NCBI RefSeq assembly: GCF_003990445.1
Contig: NZ_REEZ01000001.1
Location: forward strand, 124,001-188,000
Direction of reading: 5' to 3'
Origin: Pararhodobacter zhoushanensis
GTDB lineage: Bacteria > Pseudomonadota > Alphaproteobacteria > Rhodobacterales > Rhodobacteraceae
Length of the DNA stretch: 64,000 nucleotides
Part shown: positions 14,889-38,582 of the stretch, piece after piece
How positions within the stretch are numbered: position 1 is the first letter of the stretch
Layout: every line of letters begins with the position of its first letter
Notes under the pieces: model-generated
The model's input: only the letters and a program-made list of their open reading frames with translations
Databases searched by the model: none
Told to the model about the DNA's origin: nothing
Translations under genes and position numbers: made by a program

Positions 14889-14903
14889 AACCGCGCCTCT
14901 TCA

Positions 14904-14976
14904 TCTTGCTCAAAATACGCTCGGGGGGTGAATTCGGCGTCAGCCGAAGAGGGGGGCAGAAGGCCCCCCTTGCCCC
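14904..14976 (-). repeat. Dispersed GGATATTT-core hairpin element, copy A
   Basis: It starts at the nrdR stop codon. On the minus strand the order is a GGGGGGC/GCCCCCC hairpin, a TTCGGC/GCCGAA hairpin, TTCACCCCCCGAG, a degenerate core (CGTATTTT) and GAGCAAGATGAAG. It fills the whole nrdR-ribD gap. Confidence 0.7.
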
Positions 14977-15444
14977 TCAATCCTCGTTCAGGATCGGCGG
15001 ACGCAGTTCCGAAACGAACTTGTCAAAATCATCCGCCGCCTGGAAATTCTTGTAGACGCTGGCAAAGCGCACGTAGGACACGGTGTCGATACGCGCCAAC
15101 GTCTCCATGACGATCTCGCCGATCACCCGGCTGGGGATGTCGGTATCGCCCATGCTTTCCAGCCGTCGCACGATGCCGGATATCATCTGCTCGGTGCGTT
15201 CCGGCTCAATCGGCCGCTTCTGCATCGCGATGCGGATCGAGCGTTCCAGCTTGTCACGATCAAACGGTTCGCGCTTGCCCGAGGATTTCACCACCACCAG
15301 ATCGCGCAGTTGCACGCGCTCATACGTGGTGAAGCGTCCGCCACAGGCCGGGCAAAACCGCCGCCTGCGGATTGACACATGGTCCTCGGCGGGACGGGAG
15401 TCTTTGACCTGGGTATCGACGTTTCCGCAGAACGGGCAGCGCAT
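14977..15444 (-). CDS. nrdR: Transcriptional repressor NrdR
   Basis: A 155-aa regulator of ribonucleotide reductase genes. The zinc ribbon has Cys3, Cys6, Cys31 and Cys34 (CPFC and CPAC). The ATP-cone domain starts near residue 49 with [12 protein letters not shown]. The C-terminal segment [13 protein letters not shown] is typical. GAGGGAGAG precedes the ATG. It heads a likely nrdR-ribD transcript. No palindromic NrdR box was found upstream of it here. Confidence 0.95.
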
Positions 15445-15595
15445 GAACTCTCCCTCGGGGTGGGTGTCAGCAAATCCACTTGGACTATAGGGAAACCGCG
15501 AAACCTTGGGTAGAGCAAAAAGGCGAACCCCAGATCGGGCCCCAGATCAGGCCCGAGATCAGGGACGCGGGCCTGTTGCAATCGAGGCTCAAACC

Positions 15596-16021
15596 TCAGT
15601 CCACGACGACCACGCGCATGTTCTCCATCCCCTGCTCCTGCACCATCGCAAACAGCAACGATGCGTTGTCGGGATGCAGGCGCACGCAGCCAGCGCTGGC
15701 CGGGCGGCCCAGACGGCTGACGGCGTCGGTGGCGTGGATGGCATAGTCGCCGCTGTAGAAGATGGCGTAGGGCATCGGCGCGTTGTTGTAGAGCGACGAG
15801 CGGTGCCAGCGCGACAGCCATTGCGGCGTCCATTCGCCACGCGGTGTGTACTTGCCCGACCGCGCCGTGGACACCGGCCATTCATAGCGCAGCATGCCGT
15901 CGATATAGACATGCATCGTTTGCGCCTCGACGCTGACGCGGGCAACGATGGCTTCGGCTTTGGCGGAAATCGGCGCGAAAAAGACACTGGCCGCGAAAAC
16001 GGCCTGCAAAATTAACTTCAT
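15596..16021 (-). CDS. L,D-transpeptidase (YkuD domain), secreted
   Basis: A 141-aa periplasmic enzyme that forms or exchanges peptidoglycan cross-links or anchors proteins to peptidoglycan. A signal peptide covers residues 1-22 (cleavage after AKA). The catalytic motif is complete: His96 in IHATD, then SAGCVRL with nucleophile Cys112. It is a minimal YkuD domain with no LysM or second domain. The gene stands alone on the minus strand between nrdR and lolD. Confidence 0.85.
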   Translation of the reverse strand: MKLILQAVFAASVFFAPISAKAEAIVARVSVEAQTMHVYIDGMLRYEWPVSTARSGKYTPRGEWTPQWLSRWHRSSLYNNAPMPYAIFYSGDYAIHATDAVSRLGRPASAGCVRLHPDNASLLFAMVQEQGMENMRVVVVD

Positions 16022-16129
16022 ATCAACCCCCCGGTTGAAGACTGGAACTCAAGACGGCGTGGCAGCGCCTGGGTCCAGTTCGGTAATCACAGGGGGATGA
16101 GTCAAGATTTCAGGCGGTTTTTCGCTTAA

Positions 16130-16819
16130 CTACGCCTGCGCCGTGACAATTCTGCCTGCATCCAGCCGCAGAACGCGGTCCATTTTGGCAGCCAGTTGCA
16201 GGTTATGCGTGGCGATCAGCGCCGACAGCCCGGTGTCGCGCACAAGCTCCATCAACACGCTGAACACCTGGTCCGAGGTGTCAGGATCCAGATTACCTGT
16301 CGGTTCATCGGCCAGCAGAACGCTGGGCTGGTTGGCCATCGCCCGGCAGAAGGCCACGCGCTGCTGCTCGCCGCCAGACATCTGCGCGGGCCGGTGCCCT
16401 GCGCGCGGTGACAGGCCAACGCGGGCCAGAAGGTCGGCGGCGCGGTCGCGGGCTTGGGCCTTGGGCACACCATTGGCCAGCTGCGGCAGGATGATGTTCT
16501 CGGCGGCGGTGAATTCGGGGAGCAGATGGTGGAACTGATAGATGAACCCGACCTGCTGCCGCCGCGCCGCCGTGCGGGCGTTGTCGCCCAGCTTGGTCAA
16601 ATCGGTGCCATTGATCACCACCCGCCCGGCATCGCAGGTGTCCAGCAGCCCCGCGATATGCAGCAGCGTCGATTTCCCCGCCCCCGAAGGCGCGACCAGC
16701 GCCACCACCTCGCCGCGCTTCAGCGTGATCGAGGCTTCCTTGAGCACCGTCACCGGCCCGCCCACAGTGCCTTTGTAACTTTTCGAGATCCCGTCGAGGA
16801 CCAGCGTTGTCTCACTCAT
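16130..16819 (-). CDS. lolD: Lipoprotein release ABC transporter ATPase LolD
   Basis: A 229-aa ATPase that drives LolCE to release lipoproteins from the inner membrane. Walker A is APSGAGKST at residues 43-51, the signature is [10 protein letters not shown], and Walker B is [11 protein letters not shown]. The [15 protein letters not shown] block is characteristic of LolD/MacB ATPases. It overlaps the end of the permease gene by 8 nt, so the two are translationally coupled. Confidence 0.9.
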
Positions 16820-18098
16820 AGCGCAGCGCCTCGACCGGGTTCATCCGTGCCGCGCGACGGGCCGGGAAGATGGTGACAATAAAGGACAGACCCAGCGACA
16901 GCGACACCGCCTTGAGCACATCGACCAGCCTCAGCTCCGCCGGCAGCGCATAGATCCCCCGGATCGACGCATCCCAGACACCGCCGCCCGAAAGGTAATT
17001 CACGAAACCAAAGATCGGATCAATATAGAGCGCAAACAGACACCCGGCGATCACGCCAATGCCGGTGCCAACCACACCCACCAGCGAGCCGCACAGGAAA
17101 AACACCCGCAGGATCGAGCCTTCGGACAGCCCCATCGTGCGCAGGATGCCGATGTCGCGGCCCTTGTTCTTCACCAGCATGATCAGCCCGGAAATGATGT
17201 TCATTGCAGCGATCAGCACCAGAATGGACAGGATGATGAACATCACATTATCCTCGATATCCAGCGCGCGCAGGAACGACCCGGCGCTGTCGCGCCACGT
17301 CCAGACCATCGCACGCGGGCCTGCGGCCTGCATCAGCGGATAGACCATCTCCTCGACGTTCTCGGGACGCTCCAGCATCACCTCGATCTCATCCGCCACG
17401 CCGTCGCGGTTGAAAAAGCTCTGGGCTTCGGTGAAAGGCAGATAAACCCGTGTGCGATCAATATCATAGCGCCCGGCGCTGAAGATATAGACCACCTCAT
17501 AGGCATTCACCCGCGGCGAGGTGCCAAACGCCGTGCGCGCCCCCTCGGGCGAGATGATGCGGATGCGGTCGCCGACCGACGCCTGCAGCTCGCGCGCGAC
17601 ACCCTCACCAATGGCGATACCCTCGTCAAAGCGGGTGATGTCGCCGCGCGCGCGGTCGGAATGGGCGATCCGGGGGATGGCCAGCAAGTCGTCATAGCGG
17701 ATGCCGAATACCTCGACCCCCGCGTTGCGGCCATCGTTGGTGGCCATGACCTGCCCCTTGACCAGAGGCGCCGTGCCGATGACGCCGGGCACCGCCGCCA
17801 GCCGCTCGGCCAGATCGGCGAAGTCGTCGATGGTGCGGCTGGTCTGGCCGTTCTCGGTCACGCTGGTCGAATAATACACCGTCGCATGGGCGTTCGAGCC
17901 CAGGATCGTGTCGACAAATTCCGACCGGAAGCCCGAGCGCACCGCGAGCGTCGCGATCAGCGCAAACACCGCCAGCGCGACCCCGACCAGCGAGATCACG
18001 GTCATCACACTGACACCGCCCTCGGCCCGGCGGGCGCGCAGATAGCGCCAGGCGATCGTCCATTCGAAGGCGGCGAAGGGCGGGGTCTTGGCACTCAT
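16812..18098 (-). CDS. lolC: Lipoprotein-releasing ABC transporter permease (LolC/E type)
   Basis: A 428-aa inner-membrane protein with the MacB/LolCE topology: one TM helix (about residues 28-50), a periplasmic domain of about 200 residues, then three TM helices. The N-terminal stretch [16 protein letters not shown] and the C-terminal [16 protein letters not shown] are family hallmarks. In alphaproteobacteria a single LolC/E-like permease probably forms a homodimer, so one gene is enough. It precedes lolD in the transcript. Confidence 0.9.
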
Positions 18099-18203
18099 GA
18101 GACGGGATTTCCGGCGAGGGGGCGCAGGGCTCTGCGCAAGGCGTGCGCAAAGTCGGTTGAAAGCCCGGTCTGGTCAAGGGGGGACGGGATCACGGCTGTG
18201 TTG

Positions 18204-18231
18204 TGTACGCTTCACTTTACATTATGTACGC
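18204..18231 (+). promoter_or_regulatory. Direct TGTACGC repeats upstream of the XRE operon
   Basis: Two TGTACGC copies are 21 bp apart, start to start (18204-18210 and 18225-18231), in an AT-richer promoter-like stretch 50-75 bp before the first gene. Two helical turns of spacing suit a dimeric repressor such as the XRE protein encoded downstream. Inference only. Confidence 0.35.
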
Positions 18232-18277
18232 CAGATAGTACTTAAAGTCGCATTGATTCGACACCAAAGGCGCTCCC

Positions 18278-18724
18278 ATGTCCTTCACCCAACGCAGCAT
18301 TATCGCTGAACTCGTCTCGTCCCTGATCGTGGTGGCGCTCTTCGCCTGGCTGATCACCACCCGCCACGCCGCCGGCGCCTTCGACGGCCCCGAGGGGTTA
18401 ACCCAGTGGGCGCGTCAGGTCCTGTGGATGATCCCCGCCTCCATCGCGGTCAGCATCGTGGTTACCGTCCTGCTGGCCGTCGCCTATCACGCCACCACCC
18501 GCGCCAAATTCGACGATCTGGTCGACGAGCGGGACCGCATGATTACCGGCTGGGGCTGGAAGGTGACGGCGATTGTCATCTCGGCCGGTTTCGTCGCGGC
18601 GCTTGCGGCTCTGGCCTGGGGGGCAAGCGCCTTTCTGGCGCTGAACCTGATGCTGGGCGCCTTCGCCCTGGGCGATCTGAGCGGCAATGCCGCCAAACTG
18701 CTTCGCTACGGGCTGGGGGACTGA
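18278..18724 (+). CDS. Membrane protein linked to an XRE regulator (DUF2178-like)
   Basis: A 148-aa protein with four predicted TM helices in two pairs and a cytosolic loop carrying FDDLVDERDRMI near residues 78-89. That acidic D-E-R-D loop resembles DUF2178-type proteins, which are commonly encoded next to a tiny XRE regulator, as here. Function unknown; a stress or signal sensor is a guess. It is followed 3 nt later by the regulator gene. Confidence 0.6.
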   Translation: MSFTQRSIIAELVSSLIVVALFAWLITTRHAAGAFDGPEGLTQWARQVLWMIPASIAVSIVVTVLLAVAYHATTRAKFDDLVDERDRMITGWGWKVTAIVISAGFVAALAALAWGASAFLALNLMLGAFALGDLSGNAAKLLRYGLGD

Positions 18725-18727
18725 AGC

Positions 18728-18934
18728 GTGGCGCAAATCACCAATACCATTCGCCGCCTGCGCTTCGACGCGGGCGAGATGACGCAAAAGGCACTGGCCG
18801 AGCGCGTCGGCGTCACCCGCCAGACGATCCACGCGCTTGAGGCGGGCAAATACGCGCCCACGCTGGATCTGGCGTTTCGCATCGCGCGCGCCTTTGAGCG
18901 CCCACTGGAGGAGGTGTTTACCTATGTCGACTGA
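18728..18934 (+). CDS. Small XRE-family transcriptional regulator
   Basis: A 68-aa protein that is essentially one helix-turn-helix domain ([20 protein letters not shown], residues 18-37) ending in EEVFTYVD. It starts with GTG 3 nt after the membrane protein gene, and its last 11 nt overlap the oxidoreductase gene. It probably represses its own operon. Confidence 0.85.
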
Positions 18935-19898
18935 AACCATGCGCGCCGCCACCGCCCGCCGCTATGGCGGGCCCGAGGTCATGGCGATCGAAACCCTGCC
19001 GCGCCCGGTGGCCGGACCGGGGCAGCTGCTGATCGAGACCGCCGCCTTTGGCGTCACCCGCGGTGATGCCCGCATCCGCGGTCTTGACGTACCCCGCGGC
19101 ATGGGCCTGTTGATGCGGCTGATCTTCGGCCTGACCCGCCCGCGCCGACCCATCCAGGGGCGTGAGTTTGCCGGTGTCGTGGCGGCTGTGGGCGACGGTG
19201 TCACCGGCTGGTCAATAGGCGATGCGGTGATGGGCATCACGCCGGGCATGCGCCTGAGCGCGGGGGCCGAGTATTGCGCCGTGCCCGCAGACGGCCGGCT
19301 GACCAGCCGCCCCGAAACGCTGACGCCCGAAGAGGCCGCCGGGTATTTCTTCGGCCTGCTCACCGCCGCCGATTTCCTCCTCGATCAGGCAAAGCTGCAA
19401 CCCGGGGACCGCGTGCTGATCAACGGTGCCAGCGGTGCTGTCGGCATCGCCGCCGTCTGGTTGGCCAAGCACGAGGGCGCGCAGGTTACCGCCGTCTGCT
19501 CCCCCGCCAACCACGATTTCGTGCGTAGCTACGGCGCCGACCTCACCGCCGATTATGCCCGCCCGCTGCCCGATGGCCCCTATGACGTGATACTCGATGT
19601 GGCAGGCACCCTGCCCTATTCCCGCGCCAAACCGCTGCTGGCCGATGGTGGCCGCTTTGCCCTGATCACCGCAGACCTGAAGGGCCAGCTCGGCGCGAAC
19701 CTGCGTCCACGGCGCGGAACGCACCAGCTTCTCGCAGGCGTCACAAAGGAATCCCCCGCCGCCCTCACGCGCGCGCTGGCCTACCACGCCCAAGGCTACC
19801 GGCCACCGATCACAACCCTACCGCTGACCGACATCCAACAGGCGCACCAGCTCGCCTCAACCGGCCACAAACGCGGCAATGTCGTCGTCACGCTTTAG
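18924..19898 (+). CDS. NAD(P)-dependent alcohol dehydrogenase / quinone oxidoreductase (MDR family)
   Basis: A 324-aa medium-chain dehydrogenase/reductase without the structural-zinc Cys cluster. The N-terminal catalytic domain has GREFAGVV near residue 73. The Rossmann domain has the cofactor loop [17 protein letters not shown] near 169. It most resembles NADPH:quinone reductase-like enzymes. The ATG at 18924 overlaps the regulator gene and has GGAGGAG about 12 nt upstream; a second ATG at 18939 is possible. Third gene of the XRE operon. Confidence 0.75.
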
Positions 19899-20002
19899 CG
19901 CATTTTCTGTCCGAAAATATCCACGGGAGGATTTTCAAGGAGGGTACGTGTACCCTCCTTGAAGCAGGGGGCCCGGGGGGCGGCAGCCCCCCGCACCTGC
20001 CC
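19899..20002 (-). repeat. Dispersed GGATATTT-core hairpin element, copy B
   Basis: It occupies the gap between the convergent oxidoreductase and hutU. On the minus strand, after the hutU stop, come a GGGGGGC/GCCCCCC hairpin, a 14-bp stem (19934-19963, TTCAAGGAGGGTAC and its complement), then CCTCCCGTGGATATTTTCGG and ACAGAAAATG. Likely acts as the hutU 3' end. Confidence 0.7.
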
Positions 20003-21682
20003 TCACAAGATCCCCGGCAACTCCAACTGATGCTCCCGCGCGCAATCCAGCGCGATCTCATACCCCGCATCCGCGTGCCGCATCACCCCGGTCGCCGGAT
20101 CGTTCCACAACACCCGCGCCAGCCGCCGGTCGGCATCCGCCGTCCCGTCGCACACGATCACCATGCCCGAGTGCTGCGAGAACCCCATGCCGACCCCGCC
20201 GCCATGATGCAGCGACACCCAGGTCGCACCCGAGGCGGTGTTGAGCAGCGCGTTCAGCAGCGGCCAGTCCGACACCGCGTCCGAGCCGTCCTGCATCGCC
20301 TCGGTCTCGCGGTTGGGCGACGCGACCGAGCCACTGTCCAGATGGTCCCGCCCGATCACCACCGGCGCTTTCAGCTCGCCCTTGCGCACCATCTCGTTGA
20401 ACGCGAGGCCCGCCCGGTGCCGGTCCCCCAGCCCGATCCAGCAGATCCGTGCGGGCAGGCCCTGAAACGCGATCCGGTCGGCGGCCATGTCCAGCCAGCG
20501 GTGCAGATGGGTGTTGTCGGGAAAGAGTTCCTTCATCTTGGCATCGGTCTTGGCGATATCCTCGGGGTCGCCCGACAGCGCCACCCAGCGGAACGGCCCG
20601 ATGCCCTTGCAGAACAACGGGCGGATATAGGCGGGGACGAAACCCGGGAAAGCAAAGGCGTCCTCAAGCCCCTCATCCAATGCTACCTGACGGATATTGT
20701 TGCCATAATCCAGCGTCGGAACGCCGGCATTCCAGAAATCCACCATCGCCGCGACCTGCAGTTTCATGCTCGCCCGTGCCGCGCGTTCCACTGCCTTGGG
20801 GTCGCTTTCCTGCTTTGCGCGCCACTCGGCCACGCTCCAGCCCTGCGGAAGGTATCCATGGACAGGATCGTGGGCCGAGGTCTGATCGGTAACGATATCC
20901 GGCCGCACCTCGCCCGCTTTCATCCGCCGCACCAGCTCGGGGAAGACATCGGCGGCATTGCCGATCAGGGCGACCGATTTTGCCTCACCCTTGGCGGTCC
21001 AGCCGGCAATCAGCGCCAGCGCTTCGTCCAGCGTATGCGCCTTGGCGTCGCAATAGCGCGTGCGGATGCGGAAATCGGCGCGGGTCTCGTCGCATTCCAC
21101 CGCCAGACAGCAGGCCCCGGCCATCACTGCCGCCAGTGGTTGCGCGCCGCCCATGCCGCCCAGCCCGGCGGTCAGGATCCATTTGCCGGTCAGATCGCCG
21201 CCGAAATGCTGGCGTCCGGCCTCGGCAAAGGTCTCGTAAGTTCCCTGCACAATGCCTTGGGTTCCAATGTAAATCCACGATCCGGCGGTCATCTGGCCAT
21301 ACATCATCAACCCCTTCTTATCGAGGGCATTGAAATGGTCCCAGGTCGCCCAATGCGGCACGAGGTTCGAGTTGGCGATCAGCACGCGCGGCGCGTCCGC
21401 ATGGGTCTGGAACACGCCGACCGGCTTGCCGGACTGCACCAGCAGGGTCTGGTCATTCTCGAGCGTTTTCAGGCTGCTGACGATCTGATCGAAATCCTTC
21501 CACGTCCGTGCCGCCCGCCCGATCCCGCCATAAACCACCAGCTCATGCGGGTTCTCGGCCACGTCCGGGTGCAGGTTGTTCATCAACATCCGCATCGCGG
21601 CCTCGGTCTGCCATGATTTGGCGGTGATCTCGGGGCCGGTCGGGGCAAAGATGTCGCGGGTGTTGTGGCGGGGGTTGGTCAT
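20003..21682 (-). CDS. hutU: Urocanate hydratase
   Basis: A 559-aa NAD+-dependent enzyme converting urocanate to imidazolonepropionate, the second step of histidine breakdown. Family blocks include [14 protein letters not shown] near residue 47, [14 protein letters not shown] near 170 and the C-terminal [16 protein letters not shown]. Length matches the usual 550-560 aa. It is the last gene of the minus-strand hutI-hutH-hutG-hutU operon, 17 nt after hutG. Confidence 0.95.
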
Positions 21683-21699
21683 AGGGAAACCTCGTAAGT

Positions 21700-22503
21700 T
21701 CAGCGCGTTGCGGCGCGAAGTTTGGGAGCGAGAGCGACAAGATCGCCAAGGATCGCGCGCAGGTGGCGGCGCAGGGCCTCGGCCTTGGCGGGGTCATAGG
21801 CAAAGGGCGGCGTTTCGGTCGTAAGATGGGTGGACTGGGCCAGTTCCATCTGGATCGCATGAACGCCCTGCGCAGGCTGGCCGTAGTGGCGCGTGGTCCA
21901 GCCACCCTTGAAGCGGCCATTGAGGATTGAGGTGTAACCCATTGCTTCAATGCAATGATCCGCAACCAGAGACTCGATCATCGGATCGCAGGAGGTGCCA
22001 CCCACGGTGCCGATGTTGAAGTCTGGCAGCACGCCGTCAAACAGGAATGGGATGCGCGAGCGGATCGAGTGGCAGTCATACAAGATCGCCATCCCATGCA
22101 GCGCCTTGACCCGTTCCACCTGCGCTGCCAGCGCCGCGTGATACGGGCCATGATACGCCCGTCGGCGCGCATCGATTTCGGCGGAATCCGGCGCTGAAAT
22201 CCACAGTGGCTCGCCGTCGAAATCGGTCAGCGGCACCAGCCCGGTGGTGTTCTGGCCGGGGTACAGGCTTTCGCCGTCGGGTGGGCGGTTGGCGTCGATG
22301 ACATAGCGGTGGAAGGTGGCGCGCACGGTGGTGGCGCCGGGTATAAGCCCTTCATAGAGCGTATGAATATGCCAATCCGTGTCGGCCAGCAGCTGACCGC
22401 GCGGTGTCAGCTTTGCGAAGATCTCAGGCGGCAGATCGGTGCCGGTGTGCGGCAGGCCAAGGATCAGCGGGCTGTCGCCTTCAAAAACCTCGACCGGGCT
22501 CAC
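21700..22503 (-). CDS. hutG: N-formylglutamate deformylase
   Basis: A 267-aa metal-dependent amidohydrolase of the N-formylglutamate amidohydrolase family. It removes formate from N-formyl-L-glutamate, the last step of the five-step pathway. Seen: [12 protein letters not shown] near residue 14, [10 protein letters not shown] near 42, [12 protein letters not shown] near 142 and [12 protein letters not shown] near 212. Presence of hutF in the same regulon agrees with this route rather than direct formiminoglutamase. Overlaps hutH by 4 nt. Confidence 0.9.
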
Positions 22504-25195: not shown

Positions 25196-25220
25196 CTTGC
25201 GACTCCGTCAGGGATGCGGA

Positions 25221-25240
25221 TAATATGTATATACTTAATA
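25221..25240. promoter_or_regulatory. Putative HutC operator in the divergent hutI-hutF promoter
   Basis: TATGTATATACTTA is a near-palindrome centred in the 67-bp gap between hutI and hutF. It resembles GTATATAC-type operators of GntR/HutC repressors. One site could control both hut operons, released by urocanate as in other HutC systems. The assignment rests on position and symmetry. Confidence 0.6.
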
Positions 25241-25262
25241 ACGCCGTCAACGGAGAATCCGC

Positions 25263-27301: not shown

Positions 27302-27363
27302 GCCAAGGGGGTTTTCCACCCCCTTGGATCCCCCGGAGGATATTTGGCGCATAAAGTTGGCGG
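27302..27363 (+). repeat. Dispersed GGATATTT-core hairpin element, copy C1
   Basis: It follows the hutC stop directly. A 9-bp hairpin (CCAAGGGGG/CCCCCTTGG, 27303-27327) is followed by ATCCCCCGGAGGATATTTGG and GCATAAAGTTGG. The last 11 bases are mirrored in copy C2. Confidence 0.7.
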
Positions 27364-27378
27364 TTAACGAAAGCTTAA
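27364..27378. promoter_or_regulatory. CtrA-type box (TTAA-N7-TTAA) between repeat copies C1 and C2
   Basis: GTTAACGAAAGCTTAAC fits TTAA-N7-TTAAC. It is the centre of a larger palindrome, with CATAAAGTTGG at 27350-27360 mirrored at 27382-27392. It lies 170 bp before the aminotransferase gene. Confidence 0.45.
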
Positions 27379-27459
27379 CTCCCAACTTTATGCTGGAAAT
27401 ATCCTGGGGGGGTGAATGCGCGCTTGCGCGCAGAGGGGGGCTAGCCCCCCTGACCCGGT
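27379..27459 (-). repeat. Dispersed GGATATTT-core hairpin element, copy C2
   Basis: Minus-strand copy facing C1. It has GGGGGGC/GCCCCCC-like and TGCGCGC/GCGCGCA hairpins, then CACCCCCCCAGGATATTTCC and AGCATAAAGTTGG. It is the only copy not preceded by a stop codon on its own strand. Confidence 0.65.
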
Positions 27460-30306: not shown

Positions 30307-30340
30307 CGCGGGGCTGCTCGTCCCACTGTTTGCGGAGAAA

Positions 30341-30430
30341 CGGGGGGCTTCTCGCCCCCCGGGCCCCCTCGCCAAAGGGGGAGCACGCTCCCCCTTTGGA
30401 AACCCCCGTGGATATTTAGGGACAGATGAT
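30341..30430 (+). repeat. Dispersed GGATATTT-core hairpin element, copy D
   Basis: It follows the glutamine synthetase-like gene by 35 nt. A GGGGGGC..GCCCCCC hairpin (30342-30360) and a 12-13-bp stem (30372-30399, CCAAAGGGGGAGC arms) precede AACCCCCGTGGATATTTAGG and GACAGATGATG. The end runs into the start region of the CapA-like gene. Confidence 0.7.
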
Positions 30431-30473
30431 GGACGCGGTTGACGGATTTGGGGCGAGATGGTCCAGTTCGGGG

Positions 30474-31616
30474 ATGCGTGTTCTCGCCCTCTTTTTGTGC
30501 CTTGCCTCGCCCGTTGGCGCGCAGGTCTGTGCGCCGCGCACGCTGCCTGCGGTGAATACCTGTTCGGGCCGTGCGCATGTCAGTCTGGCGATTATCGGCG
30601 ATGTGTTGGTGCATCAGGCTTTGGCCTGGCGCGGGTATGCGCGCGGATTCGATACGCTTTGGACCGCGGCGGTGCCACTGTTGCAGGGAGCCGATCTGGC
30701 GATCGCCAATCTGGAGGGGCCGGTCGCCGCTGGTTTCGCGCGCGGCGGACGGCGCGTGGCTGATCCGGGGCCGGTGTTTGATGACGAGGTTTATACCGAG
30801 TATCCGGTGTTCAACTATCACCCCATCCTGATTACGGCGTTGCGTGAGGCCGGGATCGACATCGTGACGACGGCGAACAACCACGCGCTGGACCGGGGTC
30901 CGGCGGGACTGGAGGCGACGCTGGATGCACTGGATGCGGGTGGCATGGCGCATGTCGGGTCGGTTCGCGGCGGCGAGGCGCGCTGGCAACCGCTGCGGTT
31001 GCGCACGCCGGTGGGCGTGGTCGCACTGATCGGGTGCAGCTTTTCCACCAACGGCCTTCCCGATCCGCGCGGTCAGGTGCCGCGCTGTTACGACGACCGG
31101 GCCGGGTTGCTGGCCACGGTGCGGGCAGAGGTCGCGCGCGGTGCCGGGGTGATGGTGTTCCCGCATTGGGGGCAAGAGTACACATTGCAGCCGGACGCTC
31201 AGCAGCGCAGTCTTGCCCGCGCGCTGGTACAGGCCGGGGCGATGGCGGTGATCGGCACGCATCCGCATGTGCCGCAGCCGTGGGAAATGCTCGACGGGCC
31301 GGTGGGCGTCGTTCCGGTGGTCTATTCGACCGGCAATTTCATCTCGGCCCAGACGGCGCTGGAGCAGGCAACCGCGCCACTGGTCTGGCTGGATCTCTGC
31401 GCCGGGGTCCAGGGCCCGCAGGTTGGCGGTGCTGGCTATCTGCCGCTGCAGATGGCGTTTGACGGCACAGATCCGCTGCTGGTCCGTCCGGGCACTGATC
31501 CGCGCGGGGCCGCGGGGCGCGCGCTGCTGACCCGCCTGATCCCGGGGCGCGATCTGAGTGCCGTGACCGACTGCACCAACCACCGCGCCGCGCCCGCGCT
31601 GCGCCAGGACCGATGA
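30474..31616 (+). CDS. CapA family protein, secreted metallophosphatase-like
   Basis: A 380-aa protein of the CapA/PgsA (poly-gamma-glutamate capsule) family, a calcineurin-like fold. Metal-site motifs are IIGDVLVHQ near residue 39, ANLEGPV near 77, NNHALDRGP near 135, HWGQEY near 230 and GTHPHVPQPWE near 260. The start at 30474 gives an immediate signal peptide (MRVLALFLCLASPVGAQ); a start at 30426 with AGGGAC upstream would add 16 residues and is possible. It could act on a surface polymer; the glutamate link to the preceding ligase gene is only suggestive. Confidence 0.75.
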   Translation: MRVLALFLCLASPVGAQVCAPRTLPAVNTCSGRAHVSLAIIGDVLVHQALAWRGYARGFDTLWTAAVPLLQGADLAIANLEGPVAAGFARGGRRVADPGPVFDDEVYTEYPVFNYHPILITALREAGIDIVTTANNHALDRGPAGLEATLDALDAGGMAHVGSVRGGEARWQPLRLRTPVGVVALIGCSFSTNGLPDPRGQVPRCYDDRAGLLATVRAEVARGAGVMVFPHWGQEYTLQPDAQQRSLARALVQAGAMAVIGTHPHVPQPWEMLDGPVGVVPVVYSTGNFISAQTALEQATAPLVWLDLCAGVQGPQVGGAGYLPLQMAFDGTDPLLVRPGTDPRGAAGRALLTRLIPGRDLSAVTDCTNHRAAPALRQDR

Positions 31617-31627
31617 AAGGCCCCCCG

Positions 31628-32617
31628 ATGACCGAAATGACCGCGCTTGCCTATGACCGAACCGGCCCCGCGCAGGAGGTGTTGACCCTGCGCACCCTGC
31701 CCCGGCCCGCGCCGGGCCCCGGTGAGGTGCTGGTGCGGGTCCGCGTGTCCTCGGCCAACCCGTCGGACGCCAAGACCCGCGCGGGTACGCGCGGACCGGC
31801 GCCTTTTGCGCTGATCATCCCGCATTCGGATGGCGCCGGCGTTGTCGAGGCTGTGGGCGACGGGGTCGATGCTGCGCGGATCGGCCAGCGCGTCTGGCTG
31901 TGGAACGCCGCCTTTCGCCGCCCTTTCGGCACCGCTGCCCAGTATGTCGCCCTGCCCGCCGCGCAGGCCGTCCCCTTGCCCGACACCGCGGCAGACGCCG
32001 CCGGGGCAATGATGGGCATCCCCGGCATGACAGCGCACCGCGCGCTGTTTGCCGATGGACCGATCACCGGGCAGGACGTGCTGGTGACCGGCGGTGCGGG
32101 CGCGGTTGGAGCCTATGCCGTACAGATGGCGCGGCTCGGTGGAGCCGGGCGGGTCATCGCGACCTGCTCGGCGGCAAAGGCCGGGCACGCGCGGGCGATG
32201 GGGGCGGATGCGGTGATCAACTACCGCGACCCGGACGCCGCCGCGCAGATCCTTGCGGCCAGTGGCGGTGGCGTGGACCGGATCGTCGAGGTCGAGTTTG
32301 GCGGCAACCTGCCCATTACCCGACAGGTTCTGCGCGAGAATGGCACGGTTGCCACCTATGGCTCGATGGCGGTGCCGGAACCCGCCTTGCCGTTTTATCC
32401 GATGATGTTCGCAAGCCAGACACTGCGGATGATCCTGGTCTATGTGCTGCCGCCAGTCGCGCGGTCCGCCGCGCTCGCCGACATCACCCGCTGGTTGGCC
32501 GCGGGAGCGCTGCAGCACCCGGTCGCAATGCACGTGCCGATGGCCGAGGGTTGGAAGGCGCATGAAGCCTGCGAGAACACCGCGCGTGTAGGTGGCGCGC
32601 TGATCGACATCGACTGA
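31628..32617 (+). CDS. NADPH:quinone reductase-like MDR protein
   Basis: A 329-aa zinc-independent medium-chain reductase, similar to quinone oxidoreductase. Seen: PHSDGAGVVEAVG near residue 60, GIPGMTAHRAL near 130 and VTGGAGAVGAYAVQMA near 154 (NADPH loop). The ATG at 31628 has GAAAGG upstream; an ATG at 31613 overlaps the CapA-like stop (ATGA). Not close in sequence to the reductase at 18924. Confidence 0.8.
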   Translation: MTEMTALAYDRTGPAQEVLTLRTLPRPAPGPGEVLVRVRVSSANPSDAKTRAGTRGPAPFALIIPHSDGAGVVEAVGDGVDAARIGQRVWLWNAAFRRPFGTAAQYVALPAAQAVPLPDTAADAAGAMMGIPGMTAHRALFADGPITGQDVLVTGGAGAVGAYAVQMARLGGAGRVIATCSAAKAGHARAMGADAVINYRDPDAAAQILAASGGGVDRIVEVEFGGNLPITRQVLRENGTVATYGSMAVPEPALPFYPMMFASQTLRMILVYVLPPVARSAALADITRWLAAGALQHPVAMHVPMAEGWKAHEACENTARVGGALIDID

Positions 32618-32634
32618 CCCCAAGGACGGCGTGG

Positions 32635-32649
32635 TTAACAAACCCTTAA
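32635..32649. promoter_or_regulatory. CtrA-type box (TTAA-N7-TTAA) attached to repeat copy E
   Basis: GGTTAACAAACCCTTAAC fits the CtrA consensus. It lies 17 bp past the stop of the reductase gene and abuts repeat copy E in the same arrangement as the box at 27364. Between two convergent genes a promoter role is unlikely. Confidence 0.4.
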
Positions 32650-32728
32650 CGCCCCTCTTTGCTCTGAAAATATCCTCGGGGGTGAATTCGGCGTTAGCCG
32701 AAGAGGGGGCTGAAGGCCCCCTTGCCCG
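32650..32728 (-). repeat. Dispersed GGATATTT-core hairpin element, copy E
   Basis: After the stop of the DUF4169 gene, the minus strand has a GGGGGC-type hairpin, a TTCGGC/GCCGAA hairpin, then TTCACCCCCGAGGATATTTT and CAGAGCAAAGAGGGG. The second hairpin is identical to that of copy A. Confidence 0.7.
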
Positions 32729-32746
32729 TCCACCACCGGAACGCCG

Positions 32747-32926
32747 CTACTCCTGCTCGCGCTGATGCCCGTCCAGTTCGCGCCGCGCCTTCTCAGTCCG
32801 CGCCGCCTCAAGTGAGGCCTGCGCCTTGCTCACCCCGTGCTTGGCCGCCGAGACCGCACCCTGCGCCCTGCCCTCGTCGCGCGCGGCCTGTTTGCGGCGG
32901 GTGCGCAGGTTGATCACCTTGGCCAT
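32747..32926 (-). CDS. DUF4169 family small protein
   Basis: A 59-aa very basic and helical protein beginning MAKVINLRTRRKQAARDE and ending EKARRELDGHQREQE. This matches the DUF4169 family, which I recall as common and short in Rhodobacterales; function unknown. Its ATG overlaps the stop of the metalloprotease gene (TAATG), so it is translated as the second gene of that operon. Confidence 0.8.
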   Translation of the reverse strand: MAKVINLRTRRKQAARDEGRAQGAVSAAKHGVSKAQASLEAARTEKARRELDGHQREQE

Positions 32927-33825
32927 TAAAGGCTCGCCGCGCGGAAGGTGTCACATTGCGCCGGGTCGCCCGCGCGGTAGCCGGCAAAGAACCAGTTCTG
33001 GCGCTGCTCGGAGGTGCCATGCGTGAAGCTGTCAGGCACCACGCGCCCGCCCGCTGCCCGTTGCAGCGCGTCGTCGCCGATGCGCGCGGCTGTGGCCAGC
33101 GCCTGCCGTATGTCAGCCTCGGTCACCGCCAGTCGGTCGGCGGCGTTATGCGCCCAGACCCCAGCGTAGCAGTCGGCCTGCAATTCGATGCGCACCGACA
33201 GCGCGTTCGACTCGCGCTCGCTGGCGCGTTCGCGCTGGGCGTTGACCTGACCCAGTATGCCGGTCAGGTTTTGGACGTGATGCGCGACCTCATGGGCGAT
33301 GACATAGGCATTGGCGAATTCGCCGCCCGCGTTCAGCTGCTGCTCCATGACGCGGAAGAAATCGGTGTCCAGATACACCTTGCGGTCACCGGGGCAATAG
33401 AATGGCCCCATCGCCGATTGCGCCATGCCGCAGGCCGAGGTCGTGCCGCCTTGATACAGCACCAGCGTCGTCGGCGTATAGCGCTGGCCCGAGCTCTGGA
33501 AGATCCCGGTCCATACCTGTTCGGTCTCGGCCAGAATGGTGGCGACAAAGGCCTCCTGATCGTCGTCAATGGTGTTGGGGCCGCTTTGTTGCGGCGCGCT
33601 GGCGACCGGACCGCTTCCCGAACCACCGACCAGGCCCGACACGTCCACACCGAAATAAGCGCCGATCAGCAGGACGATGATCGTGGCACCAATGCCCAGC
33701 CCACCGCCGCGTCGACCACCGCCGCCGCCGATACGGATGCCCGGCAACCCGCCCGAACGGCGTCCACCGCCTGAGCGGCGACGGTCTTCGATGTTGCTGC
33801 TGGTTCTCTTGCCGCGCCACTGCAT
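32926..33825 (-). CDS. Neutral zinc metallopeptidase (YpfJ family)
   Basis: A 299-aa membrane-anchored protease-like protein. The cytosolic N-terminus (about 45 residues) is extremely Gly/Arg-rich; one TM helix follows near residues 45-62; then comes the large domain with the zinc motif HEVAHH near 178 and the CYAGVWAH block near 222. YpfJ-type proteins have unknown substrates. Start 33825 is chosen for GGAGAG upstream and the conserved MQWRGKR beginning. Confidence 0.88.
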   Translation of the reverse strand: MQWRGKRTSSNIEDRRRSGGGRRSGGLPGIRIGGGGGRRGGGLGIGATIIVLLIGAYFGVDVSGLVGGSGSGPVASAPQQSGPNTIDDDQEAFVATILAETEQVWTGIFQSSGQRYTPTTLVLYQGGTTSACGMAQSAMGPFYCPGDRKVYLDTDFFRVMEQQLNAGGEFANAYVIAHEVAHHVQNLTGILGQVNAQRERASERESNALSVRIELQADCYAGVWAHNAADRLAVTEADIRQALATAARIGDDALQRAAGGRVVPDSFTHGTSEQRQNWFFAGYRAGDPAQCDTFRAASL

Positions 33826-33914
33826 GATCGGTCTCTCCACACTGCGGGGGTCATGTTGCCGCAGCCCCGGTGAATGTCAAACGCCGGGACAGGCCCCCGG
33901 GTTCCCGGCGACGC

Positions 33915-33942
33915 AAAAAGGGCGGCCCCATGGACCGCCCTT
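33915..33942 (-). terminator. Intrinsic terminator of fumC
   Basis: On the minus strand AAGGGCGG and CCGCCCTT enclose a 9-nt loop and are followed by more T. It begins 20 nt after the fumC stop. Confidence 0.8.
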
Positions 33943-33961
33943 CGCTGTCATTCGCGTCAGA

Positions 33962-35356
33962 TCAGCCCTTGGGGCCGATCATATCCTCGGGCCGGACGAT
34001 CCGGTCGAAGGTTTCGGCATCGACGAAGCCCAGAGCGATGGCTTCCTCTTTCAGCGTGGTGCCGTTCTTGTGCGCGGTCTTGGCGACTTTGGTGGCGTTG
34101 TCATAGCCGATGGTCGGCGCCAGTGCCGTCACCAGCATCAGCGATTCCTTCATCAGCTTGTCGATGCGCGCGATATTGGCCTGCGTGCCCACCACCATAT
34201 TGTCGGTGAAGGCCGACGCCGAGTCGCCCAGCAACTGCATGGATTGCAGCACGTTGTAGCTCATCATCGGGTTATAGACGTTCAGCTCGAAATGGCCTTG
34301 GCTGCCGGCAAAACCGACCGCCGCGTCATTGCCCATCACATGCGCGCAGACCATGGTCAGCGCCTCGGCCTGCGTCGGGTTCACCTTGCCCGGCATGATC
34401 GATGAGCCGGGCTCGTTCTCCGGCAGGATCAATTCGCCCAGACCCGAGCGCGGGCCCGAGCCCAGAAGGCGCATGTCGTTGGCGATCTTGAACAGCGAGG
34501 CGGCAACGGTTTTCAGCGCGCCCGAGAACATGACCATCGCGTCATGGGCGGCCAGCGCCTCGAACTTGTTGGGGGCGGTGACGAAGGGCAGATCCGTGAT
34601 CTGCGCCATATTCCGGGCGACCATCTCGGCCCAGCCCTTTTGCGTGTTCAGCCCGGTGCCGACCGCCGTGCCGCCCTGCGCCAGCTCATAGATGTCACCA
34701 AGGCAGGCTTCGACCCGCTCGATGCCCTTCTTGACCTGATGGGTATAGCCACCGAATTCCTGACCCAGCGTCAGAGGGGTCGCATCCTGCGTGTGGGTGC
34801 GGCCGATCTTGATGATATCCTTGAACTCTTCGGACTTGGCAGCCAGCGCGTCGTGCAGTTTGTGCAGCCCCGGCAGCAGCACATCGCGCGCCTGCATGGC
34901 GATGGCGACATGCATCGCGGTCGGGAAGGTGTCGTTCGAGGACTGCCCCATGTTGCAATGGTCATTCGGGTGGACGGGCTTTTTCGAGCCCATCTCGCCG
35001 CCCAGCATCTCGATCGCGCGGTTCGAGATGACCTCGTTGGCGTTCATGTTCGACTGGGTGCCCGAGCCGGTCTGCCAGACGACCAACGGGAAGTTGTCGT
35101 CGAACTTGCCGTCGATCACTTCGCCAGCGGCCTCGATGATCGTGTCGGCGATGCGGGCGTCCATCGTGCCCAGTTCCTTGTTGGCCATCGCGCAGGCCTT
35201 TTTCACCACGCCCAAAGCGCGGATGATCGGAACCGGCTGACGCTCCCAGCCGATCGGAAAGTTCAGGATCGAGCGCTGGGTCTGCGCGCCCCAGTATTTG
35301 TCGGCGGGAACTTCCAGCGGACCGAAGCTGTCGGTCTCGGTGCGGGTGGCGGTCAT
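33962..35356 (-). CDS. fumC: Fumarate hydratase class II
   Basis: A 464-aa iron-independent fumarase of the TCA cycle interconverting fumarate and malate. Seen: [12 protein letters not shown] near residue 133, [11 protein letters not shown] near 231 and the superfamily signature [13 protein letters not shown] near 319. The start at 35356 has AGGAG about 10 nt upstream and places SFGPLEVP at the usual distance. Single gene with its own terminator. Confidence 0.95.
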
Positions 35357-35605
35357 GGCGGCACTCTCCTGCATGGGTTTGCGCCCTCTTAGCCAGAGCG
35401 CGCGGGAAAATCAATCGGCATACCTTTGTATGCAAACCCTTGAAACGCCTCGGCTGCTTCTTGCCGTCAAGTCCCCTGCGATCACCATGTGTTGAGACTG
35501 CATCACAGTTGGGGCGGCCCTGTTGCCTGAATCGGCGGATTGTTGCAACGTGGCAAAAATATGCCCTGCCCTGTGCGGGGAAACCCGATTTTCAGGAGCA
35601 ATACA

Positions 35606-37351
35606 TTGATCACGACAGACTTCCTGGCCCGCCTGGGCGCTGCTGCAACCGTTGCGGCGCTGGGCTTGGGGGCCACGATTCTGCCTGCTGCGGCCGACAC
35701 GATGGCCCCCTGGTATGCACCCGCCGCAACCCGCGCCGCGCAATTTGCCGATTTCCGCGAAGATTACCGTCGCACCGTTGTCGAATTTCAACCCTTCCGC
35801 GCCGAACTGACCGGCATTGCCGCCGATGGCACGCCGCTACGCCTGACCTCGCTGAACCCCTATGTGAACGCGTGGTTCGTGCTGGAAACCGGCGAGGGCC
35901 GCAATGCGCGCTCGTGGCATCTGGAGAACGCCGCGCCCGAGCTGTTCACGGTCTCGCTGGCCACGGACGGGCGCGCGCTGGTGATCGAAAGCGAAGCGGG
36001 CACTGTGACCTGCGCTCCCTGGGAGGGGGATCTGCAAACCGCACGCGACAGCGGTCTTCCCTATTCGCCGATCTGCGAACAGCGGATGTTCTTGCGCAAC
36101 CGCGGCTCGGGCAGCCGCACGACGCGTGAGGCTGTGACCGAATTCCTGCGCGATTACGTACCTTTTGGCGAGAGCCTGATCAACGTGATCAAGGACACGC
36201 TGTATGAGGACGCCTATCTCACCACCGCGCAGACCATGGATGCGGCCGAAGCCGGCTCGGTGGTCAACGCGCTGGGTCAGGCCGACTTGCGCTCGCATCC
36301 GGTGATGCGCTCGAACCTGCGGGTCGATCTGGTCGGTGCCGAAAGCACGCAGATGGAGGCGGGGGCCTGGTACGCCGTGCAGAACGCGCCGGGCATCTAC
36401 GCCAGCGTCGTGCAGCCCGGCATGGTCAGCCAGGACGTGCTGGCGGTACCGGGGGCGAACGGGATGGACGGGGTCGAGAACCGCTCGGACGTGCATATGT
36501 GGGCCTTCGACATGTCGCGCTTCGATCTGCGCTACGAGATCGGCACCTCGCACCCCGAGGTCGACTGGTCGCCCCGCCCTTCCGGCGCAGGCCGCGACTA
36601 TAACCTGCCCGGGCCGGATGGCTTTGGCACGGTCGAGCCGCTGCAGATGACCGGCATGATGAACCCGGTGTTCATGGACCGACTGGCCGGGATCTTCGCC
36701 GGGGGCTTCAAACGCGACCACGGCGCGTGGCGGCTGACGGATTACGCCTATACCAACCACGGCCACCATTATGGTTTCGTGGTGAATGGCGTGGTGCTGT
36801 CGCGCCTTCAGCCGGGTCTGGCGACGCTCTATGTGCTGCAGGACGGCACGGTGCATATGGACATCTGGTCCGAGCAGCTGGATTTCATGCTGCCCCATAT
36901 CCGCTTTGCCCGCCAGAACGGCACGCCGCTGGTCGAGCGCAACGCTGACGGCGTGGGCGTTCCGGGCAGTCAGGTCCGTAGCTGGATGGGCGGCAACTGG
37001 TCGGGCAGCGCCGAGGCGCAACTGCGCACCCTGCGCTCGGGCGTGTGCATGCGCACGGTCGATGACCGGCAGTTCCTGATCTATGCGGTGTTCATGTCGG
37101 CGACCCCCTCGGCCATGACCCGGGTGTTTCAGGCCTATCACTGCGACATGGCGATGCTGCTCGACATGAACTCGCTCGACCTGACCTATTCGGCGATCTA
37201 CCCGCGCGAACCGGGGTCCGAGGACTTCTCGATCGTGCATCTGGACCGCCGCATGGCCGAAAGCGACTCGCGCCACCGCGATGGCACGCCGATGGGCCGC
37301 TTCATCGAGTTTTCAGACAACCGCGACTTCTTCTACCTGCTCCGCCGCTGA
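35606..37351 (+). CDS. Secreted protein with possible phosphodiester glycosidase-like fold
   Basis: A 581-aa exported protein not firmly recognised. A TTG start at 35606 is supported by AGGAG 7 nt upstream and by a signal peptide that then starts at residue 1 and ends near ILPAAA-DT. The middle region (about 320-480) has a GGFKRDHGAWRL, HHYGFVVNGVVLSRL and VLQDGTVHMDIW succession that recalls NAGPA/DUF2233 phosphodiester glycosidases (a Gly-Gly-Phe, a reading 'vvnG' strand and a 'dG.v.....W' strand). It has few Cys. The next gene begins 13 nt after the stop, so the pair is an operon. Confidence 0.5.
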   Translation: MITTDFLARLGAAATVAALGLGATILPAAADTMAPWYAPAATRAAQFADFREDYRRTVVEFQPFRAELTGIAADGTPLRLTSLNPYVNAWFVLETGEGRNARSWHLENAAPELFTVSLATDGRALVIESEAGTVTCAPWEGDLQTARDSGLPYSPICEQRMFLRNRGSGSRTTREAVTEFLRDYVPFGESLINVIKDTLYEDAYLTTAQTMDAAEAGSVVNALGQADLRSHPVMRSNLRVDLVGAESTQMEAGAWYAVQNAPGIYASVVQPGMVSQDVLAVPGANGMDGVENRSDVHMWAFDMSRFDLRYEIGTSHPEVDWSPRPSGAGRDYNLPGPDGFGTVEPLQMTGMMNPVFMDRLAGIFAGGFKRDHGAWRLTDYAYTNHGHHYGFVVNGVVLSRLQPGLATLYVLQDGTVHMDIWSEQLDFMLPHIRFARQNGTPLVERNADGVGVPGSQVRSWMGGNWSGSAEAQLRTLRSGVCMRTVDDRQFLIYAVFMSATPSAMTRVFQAYHCDMAMLLDMNSLDLTYSAIYPREPGSEDFSIVHLDRRMAESDSRHRDGTPMGRFIEFSDNRDFFYLLRR

Positions 37352-37364
37352 GAGGGACAACGCT

Positions 37365-38357
37365 ATGAAACCGCTGGTCAAACTGGCACTGGCTCTGGGT
37401 CTTGCCCTGACGCCCGTGATGGCCTCTGCGCAAAGTCTGGCGCAGAATAACGAAACGATGTTCGCCGAGATGCAGCAGTGGCGCGGGCTGTCCGGCGCGA
37501 CGTTGGACCGCATCCGCGCGATCTTCGCGCAGTCCAACATCATGGGTCAGGGCAACCCGGCCGTGACCCGCCACCCGATGACGCCCGAGCAGGCCGCGCA
37601 GCGGCAGGGTGGCACCGTGGACTCGGTGCGCCGCGCGTATCGCAACGCCCGGTTTGAGCGGATCTGCGGCCACCCCTATGAGGTGCCGCTCTACAACCCC
37701 GAGACAGAGACGCCCGAAGACGCCCGCGTCTGCGCCTTCATGTTTGAATATCCCAACGTGCCGCTGGCCTATCCCGTGACATGGGTGCGCGCCGATCAGG
37801 TGGTTGCCTTGTGCGCCGCCGAAGGCGCGCGCATTGGCGATGCGCATGAATGGGAAGGCGCTGCCGCCGGCCAGCTTCTGCCGCCGGACTACCAGTTCCA
37901 GCTGGGCAGCCAGCAGGCGATGCGCGCCTGGCACAACCGGCATTACGCCAACCAGTCGAACGTCTTCTCGATCGGCCAATGGCGCTCGGGCGTCTGCGCG
38001 ACGGGAAGCTCCAAGACGCCGGGCTGCAATGGGGGCTCGTTCTCGGGCTGCGGGTCGAACACCTATCCGGCGGGCAGCTTTCCACAATGCCACTCGCCGC
38101 TGGGGGTCTATGACATCGATGGCAACGCCGCCGAACACATGAACCTGCCGCTGGCCGAGGATCAGATGGCCTCGCGCGGGTCGACCACGCTGGGCGTGAC
38201 CGAGATGAAGGGGTCGTGGTTCATCTGGGATCAGGTTCGCGCGCATGAGCACTGGGCCCGCTGGCGCGCCCCGTTCTGGCATGGCACGCGGGTGCTGTCG
38301 CGCTCGAGCCATGCGAATTATCACCTCGGCTTCCGCTGCTTTCGCGACATTCGGTGA
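37365..38357 (+). CDS. Secreted SUMF1/FGE-like domain protein
   Basis: A 330-aa protein with a signal peptide (residues 1-22, PVMASA-Q). The rest has the formylglycine-generating-enzyme fold markers: YPVTWVRADQVVALCAAEGARI..AHEWEGAA, the GVYDIDGNAAEHMNL block near 246, and NYHLGFRCFRDIR at the end. The catalytic Cys pair of true FGE, normally a CxxxxC shortly before LGFR, is absent, so sulfatase activation is unlikely. A Cys-rich insert of four Cys at about 207-230 suggests disulfides. GAGAGGGA precedes the ATG. Coupled to the preceding secreted protein. Confidence 0.7.
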   Translation: MKPLVKLALALGLALTPVMASAQSLAQNNETMFAEMQQWRGLSGATLDRIRAIFAQSNIMGQGNPAVTRHPMTPEQAAQRQGGTVDSVRRAYRNARFERICGHPYEVPLYNPETETPEDARVCAFMFEYPNVPLAYPVTWVRADQVVALCAAEGARIGDAHEWEGAAAGQLLPPDYQFQLGSQQAMRAWHNRHYANQSNVFSIGQWRSGVCATGSSKTPGCNGGSFSGCGSNTYPAGSFPQCHSPLGVYDIDGNAAEHMNLPLAEDQMASRGSTTLGVTEMKGSWFIWDQVRAHEHWARWRAPFWHGTRVLSRSSHANYHLGFRCFRDIR

Positions 38358-38423
38358 GCCTGCAACTGCGGCGCTCGGGGGCATCGAGCCCCTTCGCGCC
38401 GCATGGGCTGCCGCCCAAACCCG

Positions 38424-38490
38424 CTTGAAGGGGGGCGCACGCGCCCCCCTTCAAAATCCCCCCGTGGATATTTTCAGACAGAAAATGAAG
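38424..38490 (+). repeat. Dispersed GGATATTT-core hairpin element, copy F1
   Basis: A 14-bp stem (38425-38454, TTGAAGGGGGGCGC arms) is followed by AATCCCCCCGTGGATATTTT and CAGACAGAAAATGAAG. It lies 67 nt past the SUMF-like gene and faces copy F2. Confidence 0.72.
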
Positions 38491-38508
38491 CAGGGTTACC
38501 GAAGTCTT

Positions 38509-38582
38509 ATCATCTGTCTTTAAATATCCTGGGGGGTGAATTGGCCGTCAGGCCAAGAGGGGGGCAAGGCCCCCCTGCCCGG
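38509..38582 (-). repeat. Dispersed GGATATTT-core hairpin element, copy F2
   Basis: On the minus strand, past the DUF1989 gene, come a GGGGGGC/GCCCCCC-type hairpin, a TTGGCC/GGCCAA hairpin, CACCCCCCAGGATATTTAAA and GACAGATGATAAG. With F1 it fills most of the 278-bp convergent gap, which holds no gene. Confidence 0.72.

Follow-up and report, generated by a model that had tools for sequence, protein, structure and literature searches.

What kind of element recurs, with hairpins of differing sequence, between the genes of a 64,000-nucleotide stretch of contig NZ_REEZ01000001.1 of Pararhodobacter zhoushanensis (assembly GCF_003990445.1; genome G000 in our survey)? In this stretch (the window), a sequence-only reading had listed eight copies that share a core and an A/G-rich tail behind hairpins whose arms differ but pair, and all eight are there. 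Read 5′ to 3′, the unit consists of a purine arm (R), a loop, the pyrimidine partner of the arm (Y), a short linker (or a second hairpin, hairpin b), a later pyrimidine run (Y′), 1–4 nucleotides (nt), the core GGATAYTT, 3 nt, and the tail. The new observation is a third pairing, that is, R, Y, and Y′ change in concert. Our favored explanation, to which we give roughly an even chance, is a dispersed intergenic repeat family of Rhodobacteraceae, mobilized or converted, that would be akin to the BoxC/PIT intrastrand-triplex elements of Escherichia coli; in our best reading this likeness is qualified by a different strand order and by lineage-specific tails.

A third run that changes with the hairpin

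In the sequences compared, Y′ complements R in the parallel (mirror) orientation, which matches the Hoogsteen-triplex rule, and Y and Y′ together form a pyrimidine mirror repeat. Parallel R/Y′ examples are AGGAGGG/TCCTCCC, GGGAGGA/CCCTCCT, GAGGAGGG/CTCCTCCC, GAAGGGGG/CTTCCCCC, and GGGGGAG/CCCCCTC. Additional copies were collected by searching 19 genomes for CCTC before the core, a search that is neutral to direction, and then from 60 stretches, a few of them overlapping; only copies with a detected G-rich hairpin enter the test. In a first strict test (128 copies with an asymmetric, A-containing R), 37 copies favored the parallel match and 7 the antiparallel match, with 84 ties. The final test covers 224 copies that represent 95 distinct (R, Y′) types, 79 of which have an asymmetric, A-containing R. 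For the 34 informative types (an A after the first G of R plus a T in Y′), the parallel match is longer in 20, the antiparallel match in 1, and the two are equal in 13 (59, 2, and 22 copies, respectively). When Y′ is permuted among these 34 types, the parallel sum of 216 compares with 179.5 (standard deviation 5.3) and is reached in 0 of 2000 permutations; the antiparallel sum, 184 against 179.0, is at chance level (371 of 2000). A Watson–Crick hairpin of the G-run with the later C-run, which we considered first, receives no support from the antiparallel test.

The parallel match extends to other genera, where the core is often GGAGTATTT: the pairs include GGGGGAGG/CCCCCTCC (six copies, including G176, G107, and G196), GGGGGGAGG/CCCCCCTCC (G196), GGAGGGG/CCTCCCC (nine copies, including G196 and G226), and GGAGGG/CCTCCC (G234 and G195). 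At one orthologous site (L366:13123), R changes from GAAGGGGG to GAGGAGGG and Y′ from CTTCCCCC to CTCCTCCC in the close relative G018 (94% identity), at positions 3 and 5 of both runs; the loop, flanks, and tail are unchanged.

The covariation suggests that the single-stranded unit would fold as a triple-helical hairpin, predicted to be of triplex class III (pyrimidine motif) on the element strand and of triplex class I (purine motif) on the opposite strand. With R, Y, and Y′ in this order along one strand and Y′ running parallel to R, the element has the layout of triplex class III, for which loops are 1–6 nt; many class II copies of the element have a loop of 4–5 nt and a linker of a few nt, and in class I copies the linker holds hairpin b. 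The compensatory arm changes first proposed from the window are borne out for hairpin b, all six pairs of which have changed on both sides among 35 class I copies aligned with MAFFT (a few rows are off by one column). Its covariation score is 0.289, compared with 0.083 when shuffled (0 of 500) and at most 0.111 when slid, and its paired cells amount to 93.4% compared with 80.6% (0 of 500); two of the five measures are not above the shuffles, namely both-side-changed pairs (7 compared with 5.7; 69 of 500) and further pair types (11 compared with 11.7; 442 of 500). Hairpin a is nearly invariant in the same copies.

A repeat family with discrete tails

The dispersed family is real: as a genome-wide check, CCCCNNNNGGATATTT was found 118 times in the genome and its reversed-pattern control 0 times. 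A looser pattern (CCCC, 4–7 bases, TATTT) matches 133 times on the reverse strand (control, 5) and 393 times on the forward strand (control, 11), the latter count being inflated because a single C-run can match several times. Within the window, the shared core GGATATTT occurs eight times where 0.52 are expected; seven of these matches are copies, and the other, at 62901, lies inside a called gene and is not an element. The first copy has the degenerate core, GAGCGTATTT, that had been ascribed to it.

Our main set of 86 copies was taken from 60 genome stretches and the window, using only GGATATTT cores with CCCC in the preceding 12 bases; genes were called by a simple codon-usage script, with a Pfam check for part of them. 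The copies are laid out as hairpin a (G-run, C-run), often hairpin b, another C-run, then GGATATTT after a few bases, and the tail after three free bases. The A/G-rich tail that had been described is present, but it is one of four discrete 10-mers in the genome: GACAGAAAAT (28 copies), GACAGATGAT (21), GCATAAAGTT (19), and GAGCAAAGAR (18). All 10 tail positions fit the assigned type in 83 of the 86 copies, and the 3-nt spacer between core and tail varies while the tails stay fixed. One class II block found in seven copies (two with an extra C) carries three different tails.

An inverted partner (AAATATCC plus a G-run, or a close variant) lies within 180 bases of 43 of the 86 copies. The motif TTAA-N7-TTAA, which we take to resemble a CtrA box, sits in the center of many of these pairs; 35 of the 86 elements have it in the 75 nt that follow the core, as do 28 of the 51 that have a partner by a looser definition. 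The whole window holds three occurrences: at 27364, at 32635 beside a copy, and at 13747 in an element-free spacer. The eight window copies are likewise not independent units, since four of them form two inverted pairs, each with one common center. Listed below with strand and parts, the copies are referred to as 14904, 19899, 27302, 27379 (to 27459), 30341, 32650, 38424, and 38509, after their starts in the sequence-only reading.

14899–14972, minus strand: diverged copy with hairpins a and b, C6 run at 14923–14928, core GAGCGTATTT, tail GCAAGATGAAG at 14899–14909; the neighbors are nrdR (14977–15444) and the next gene (13782–14888), both on the minus strand.
19901–19993, minus strand: class II copy with Y′ at 19925–19931, core at 19915–19922, tail GACAGAAAATG at 19901–19911; its runs are AGGAGGG (R), CCCTCCT (Y), and TCCTCCC (Y′), with an ADH-like gene on one side and urocanase on the other.
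27303–27359, plus strand: left half of an inverted pair, with a hairpin at 27303–27327, Y′ at 27329–27334, core at 27338–27345, tail GCATAAAGTTG at 27349–27359.
27360–27382, no strand: center of the inverted pair, with TTAA-N7-TTAA at 27364–27378.
27383–27451, minus strand: right half of the pair, with the tail at 27383–27393, core at 27397–27404, Y′ at 27406–27412, hairpin b at 27417–27432, hairpin a at 27434–27451.
30341–30431, plus strand: class II copy with an upstream hairpin at 30341–30361, R arm at 30372–30383, Y arm at 30388–30399, Y′ at 30403–30407, core at 30410–30417, tail GACAGATGATG at 30421–30431.
32654–32722, minus strand: class I copy with tail GAGCAAAGAGG at 32654–32664, core at 32668–32675, Y′ at 32678–32682, hairpin b at 32687–32702, hairpin a at 32704–32722.
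38425–38487, plus strand: left half of an inverted pair, class II, with the R arm at 38425–38437, Y arm at 38442–38454, Y′ at 38457–38463, core at 38466–38473, tail GACAGAAAATG at 38477–38487.
38508–38576, minus strand: right half of that pair, class I, with tail GACAGATGATA at 38508–38518, core at 38522–38529, Y′ at 38531–38536, hairpin b at 38541–38556, hairpin a at 38558–38576.

Other repeated hairpins (GGCGCG...ATCGAG...CGCGCC types) stand upstream of 38425 and of copies in L010, L029, L040, L063, and others, so that the spacers are a mosaic of modules. Rfam covariance models find only two tRNAs in the window; the elements are matched by no family.

Within the genus, raw matches per genome range from 0 (G015) to 419 (G010); at one orthologous locus, the nearest named genomes are Pararhodobacter (Rhodobacteraceae). 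The core CCCCNGGAGTATTT occurs in 83 of 198 sampled genera of Rhodobacteraceae and in 6 of 285 genomes outside the family, with a single match in each; as far as sampled, the element is restricted to Rhodobacteraceae. A literature search, which included the motif letters, returned no paper on the element in Rhodobacteraceae among the top matches listed.

Some simpler roles for the core and tail were rejected. A DNA uptake sequence does not fit, in that the tails almost never stand without a core: of the 92 tail matches in 209,228 bases, 86 follow GGATATTT at the normal distance, 5 are next to a core that is variant in sequence or distance, and 1 stands alone. On inspection, the spacing is unsuitable for reading the tail as a Shine–Dalgarno sequence. 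The RNA-polymerase pause consensus as a reading of GGATATTTNNNG is unsupported, as the base before the G is A or G in 79 of the 86 copies.

Change at orthologous sites

Copies are gained, lost, and overwritten between relatives at conserved sites, and the tails, discrete and lineage-specific, can be swapped in place. The comparison with G018, which is 90–94% identical to this genome over long matches, covers eleven spacers. The copy at 12600 is swapped whole, tail included. In two pairs (window 27302 and L366:8134/8183) both tails switch type together: in the former, both are of the GAGCAAAG type in G018 and both hairpin sets are almost unchanged; in the latter, hairpin b is TGCGGC/GCCGCA in this genome and TTGGCC/GGCCAA in G018, where one of the cores is also damaged. 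In the 19899 copy, all three runs differ together and the tail is the same. The pair 19075/19124 is replaced and collinearity stops inside it, at L366:19131 (one case, in which the sequence beyond has two places in G018). Window 30341, L366:279, and L366:1523 are kept with few changes, the left-half core of the 38424 pair is damaged, and G018 is without the stretch that surrounds the 32650 copy. The T-containing copies of G018 show the same four tail types as this genome. The G-rich hairpin upstream of the 30341 copy, single in the window, is tandemly repeated in its G018 counterpart (L349).

Neither G010 nor G017 carries an element in the 19899 spacer; there, CTATAG is common to the two stop codons. 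At the FGE/DUF1989 spacer (77 of 80 loci examined, that is, without L110, L111, and L175), the element occurs with other tails in three named Pararhodobacter genomes and in Rhodobacter sp. NTK016B (L098, L099, L100, and L136); loci L102, L103, L126, and L127, labeled Pararhodobacter, have no element within 300 bases. In the same spacer of Mameliella (L152 and L154), a hairpin and T-run follow the FGE-like gene, and the repeat element follows the gene that enters from the opposite side; L155 has an interrupted T-run (TTTCTT).

Placement, orientation, and the nature of the family

Placement after stop codons is supported. In the window, a same-strand stop codon lies directly upstream of seven of the eight copies, as had been noted, the exception being 27379; in the main set, 69 of the 86 copies have a same-strand stop upstream and none lies inside a called gene. 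By spacer, 41 of the 86 are convergent, 28 tandem, and 1 divergent, and 16 have both neighbors on the other strand. For orientation we used 188 copies (own-genome loci L190 and L202 were not counted among genus mates), with 3 in divergent spacers and 1 inside a called gene. Single copies in tandem spacers are sense or antisense in ratios of 16:4 in this genome, 16:3 in genus mates, and 12:14 in other genera; of ten proteins tested, taken from 9 of the 13 loci that hold reversed copies, nine had a Pfam match in the called frame. The start of the next gene is no more than 30 nt from the core in L007, L028, L034, L328, L331, L335, L339, and L345, and the element takes up almost the whole of several tight spacers between co-directional genes.

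A conserved 3′ element had been proposed; its real hairpins and its position after stop codons hold, but a general 3′ role does not, given the orientation outside the genus, the tight spacers, and copies that are gained, lost, and overwritten. The doubt already voiced about simple intrinsic terminators was justified, as the T-run is absent after the hairpins of the window and genome copies inspected. We reject a general terminator on orientation and placement outside the genus; it is unlikely because the copies turn over between relatives, fill tight co-directional spacers, and lack a sense bias outside the genus. Ordinary hairpin and T-run sites were seen by eye in the window at 808–870, 33826–33961, and 45909–45926; terminator scans of window positions 10000–49999 give 12 and 15 sites compared with 11.8 and 11.5 expected, no excess over shuffles.

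We rank a mobilized or converted triplex repeat first because of the gain, loss, swapping, and orientation of the copies. In this proposal, the fold, core, and tail would be recognized by a putative recombination or mobilization activity; because the activity would read all three, active copies would keep the three-strand match and tails would follow its specificity, and insertions would persist chiefly right behind stop codons, as they are not tolerated in genes and promoters. An RNA role at 3′ ends is ranked second because of the within-genus sense bias (32:7) and is possible, though clearly less probable: immediately before AUAUUU, the sense transcript would fold into an RNA triple helix of class III that makes RNA polymerase pause or keeps exonucleases away from the mRNA 3′ end or from an end left by intercistronic cleavage, and the tail would lie just past the transcript end. 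The convergent copies (41 of 86) and hairpin covariation fit this role, as does the rule that RNA allows pyrimidine-type but not purine-type triplexes (PMC4666352), and ~10 nt separate the end of Y′ from that of the U-rich core, which would be a terminator-like spacing. The 12:14 orientation outside the genus and the eight loci with a gene start within 30 nt of the core argue against it, as do the ordinary hairpin and T-run sites of the window, though the scans show no excess of these, and the related PIT elements, which are described as without terminator activity (PMC4666352). In 230 R:Y stems, A.C mismatches outnumber G.T (56 to 15, raw counts inflated by stem-end alignment and repeated copies), so there is no sign of tolerated G.U wobble on the sense strand. 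Slightly less probable again is the broader proposal that bacterial mRNA 3′ ends carry the first widespread RNA triple-helix family, in which a C/U-rich third strand, folded back on a hairpin beside a short AU core, would end transcripts or protect them, and the lineage-specific tails would act as codes that are read in trans.

Tails that are exact in 83 of 86 copies although the spacer varies, and TTAA-N7-TTAA near 35 of 86 elements (28 of 51 with a partner) compared with three in the window, two of them beside elements, would also suit the binding site of a chromosome-organizing or regulatory protein, in which core and tail form the site, tails track specificity, and the pair center is presumably a CtrA-type box. 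We consider this unlikely: such a site does not need the hairpins and the three-strand match, four tails occur within one genome, and tail types are swapped at orthologous sites relative to G018, which has the same four. It is very improbable that H-DNA or cruciforms suffice, that is, a mirror repeat and an inverted repeat in duplex DNA, maintained by supercoiling or by effects of replication with no trans-acting factor, the concerted change being gene conversion alone. The Y/Y′ mirror repeat and the single collinearity break at L366:19131 agree with it, and E. coli intrastrand triplex motifs are tied to rearrangement (PMC4666352); the conserved core and discrete tails would be left unexplained.

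Several points weigh against a mobilized triplex repeat. Over all 79 asymmetric types the count is 24 parallel, 9 antiparallel, and 46 ties (64, 11, and 109 copies); 8 of the 9 antiparallel types (9 copies) have the only A of R at its start and gain a single base over the parallel match; most of them are class I and carry CCCCCCT or CCCCCT. Most copies have uniform G/C runs that are uninformative for direction, the R/Y′ permutation ignores kinship between types, and 8 of 224 copies have a T in Y′ without an A in the detected R (in some of these, the T is part of hairpin b, or a hairpin has been misassigned). In G018, the replacement of copy 12600 has a Y′, CTCCACCC, one base off its R, and at L366:1523 Y′ changes from CCCTCCC to CCCACCC, one base off the match. 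C+.G-C triples in a run are unfavorable near neutral pH. The 32:7 sense bias (p = 7e-5) is not expected of neutral insertion, in-place replacement could be gene conversion without mobilization, and the mobilizing enzyme was not identified, a Y1/RAYT-type transposase not being found in this genome, G010, or G017. A search with PF01797 (Y1, IS200-like) gives no match in G000 and matches in 2 of 19 genus genomes.

The closest known system is the E. coli BoxC/PIT/TM_ECO motif, described, along with the classes of intrastrand triplexes, as intergenic, strain-variable, without strand bias, and found in inverted pairs of two types (PMC4666352). The Rhodobacteraceae element is likewise dispersed, intergenic, and G/C-rich, with three homopurine/homopyrimidine runs that obey a triplex rule, a copy number that is very variable among relatives, and inverted pairs that join two different types; in contrast to that motif (Y-R-R′) its order is R-Y-Y′, it has a conserved core and a lineage-specific tail, it is sense-biased after stop codons in this genus, and its third-strand rule is seen as covariation across many arm sequences. 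The TM_ECO consensus, CCCTCNCCC N3-6 GGGNGAGGG N3 GGGNGAGGG, has 0 matches in 1,088,248 bases of collected sequence, overlaps included, and a word search of the main text of PMC4666352 finds no Rhodobacter or Roseobacter. REP/BIME elements with RAYT are also high-copy, lineage-specific extragenic palindromes, single and in inverted pairs (PMC2817692, PMC3733652), but here the arm sequence is free and core and tail are fixed; we reject a REP/RAYT system, as no Y1 transposase was found in this genome. The text searched of PMC3733652, on REP families, has no match for Rhodobacter, Roseobacter, Paracoccus, or Ruegeria. Intrinsic terminators share the G/C hairpins soon after stop codons, but the element has no T-run, sits in tight co-directional spacers, and, outside the genus, stands in either orientation.

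Bacteria have for years been known to carry intrastrand triplex repeats, whose function is not settled. The many arm sequences of this family make a comparative test of the three-strand rule possible, and the outcome agrees with the rule, including at one site whose ortholog was compared in a close relative. Through the lineage-specific tails, the factor that recognizes the element can be sought, and swaps in place are a natural assay of how such repeats are copied. The range of 0–419 raw matches within one genus would allow a comparison of gene content, and annotators of Rhodobacteraceae genomes would be able to name a feature that is common in the spacers.

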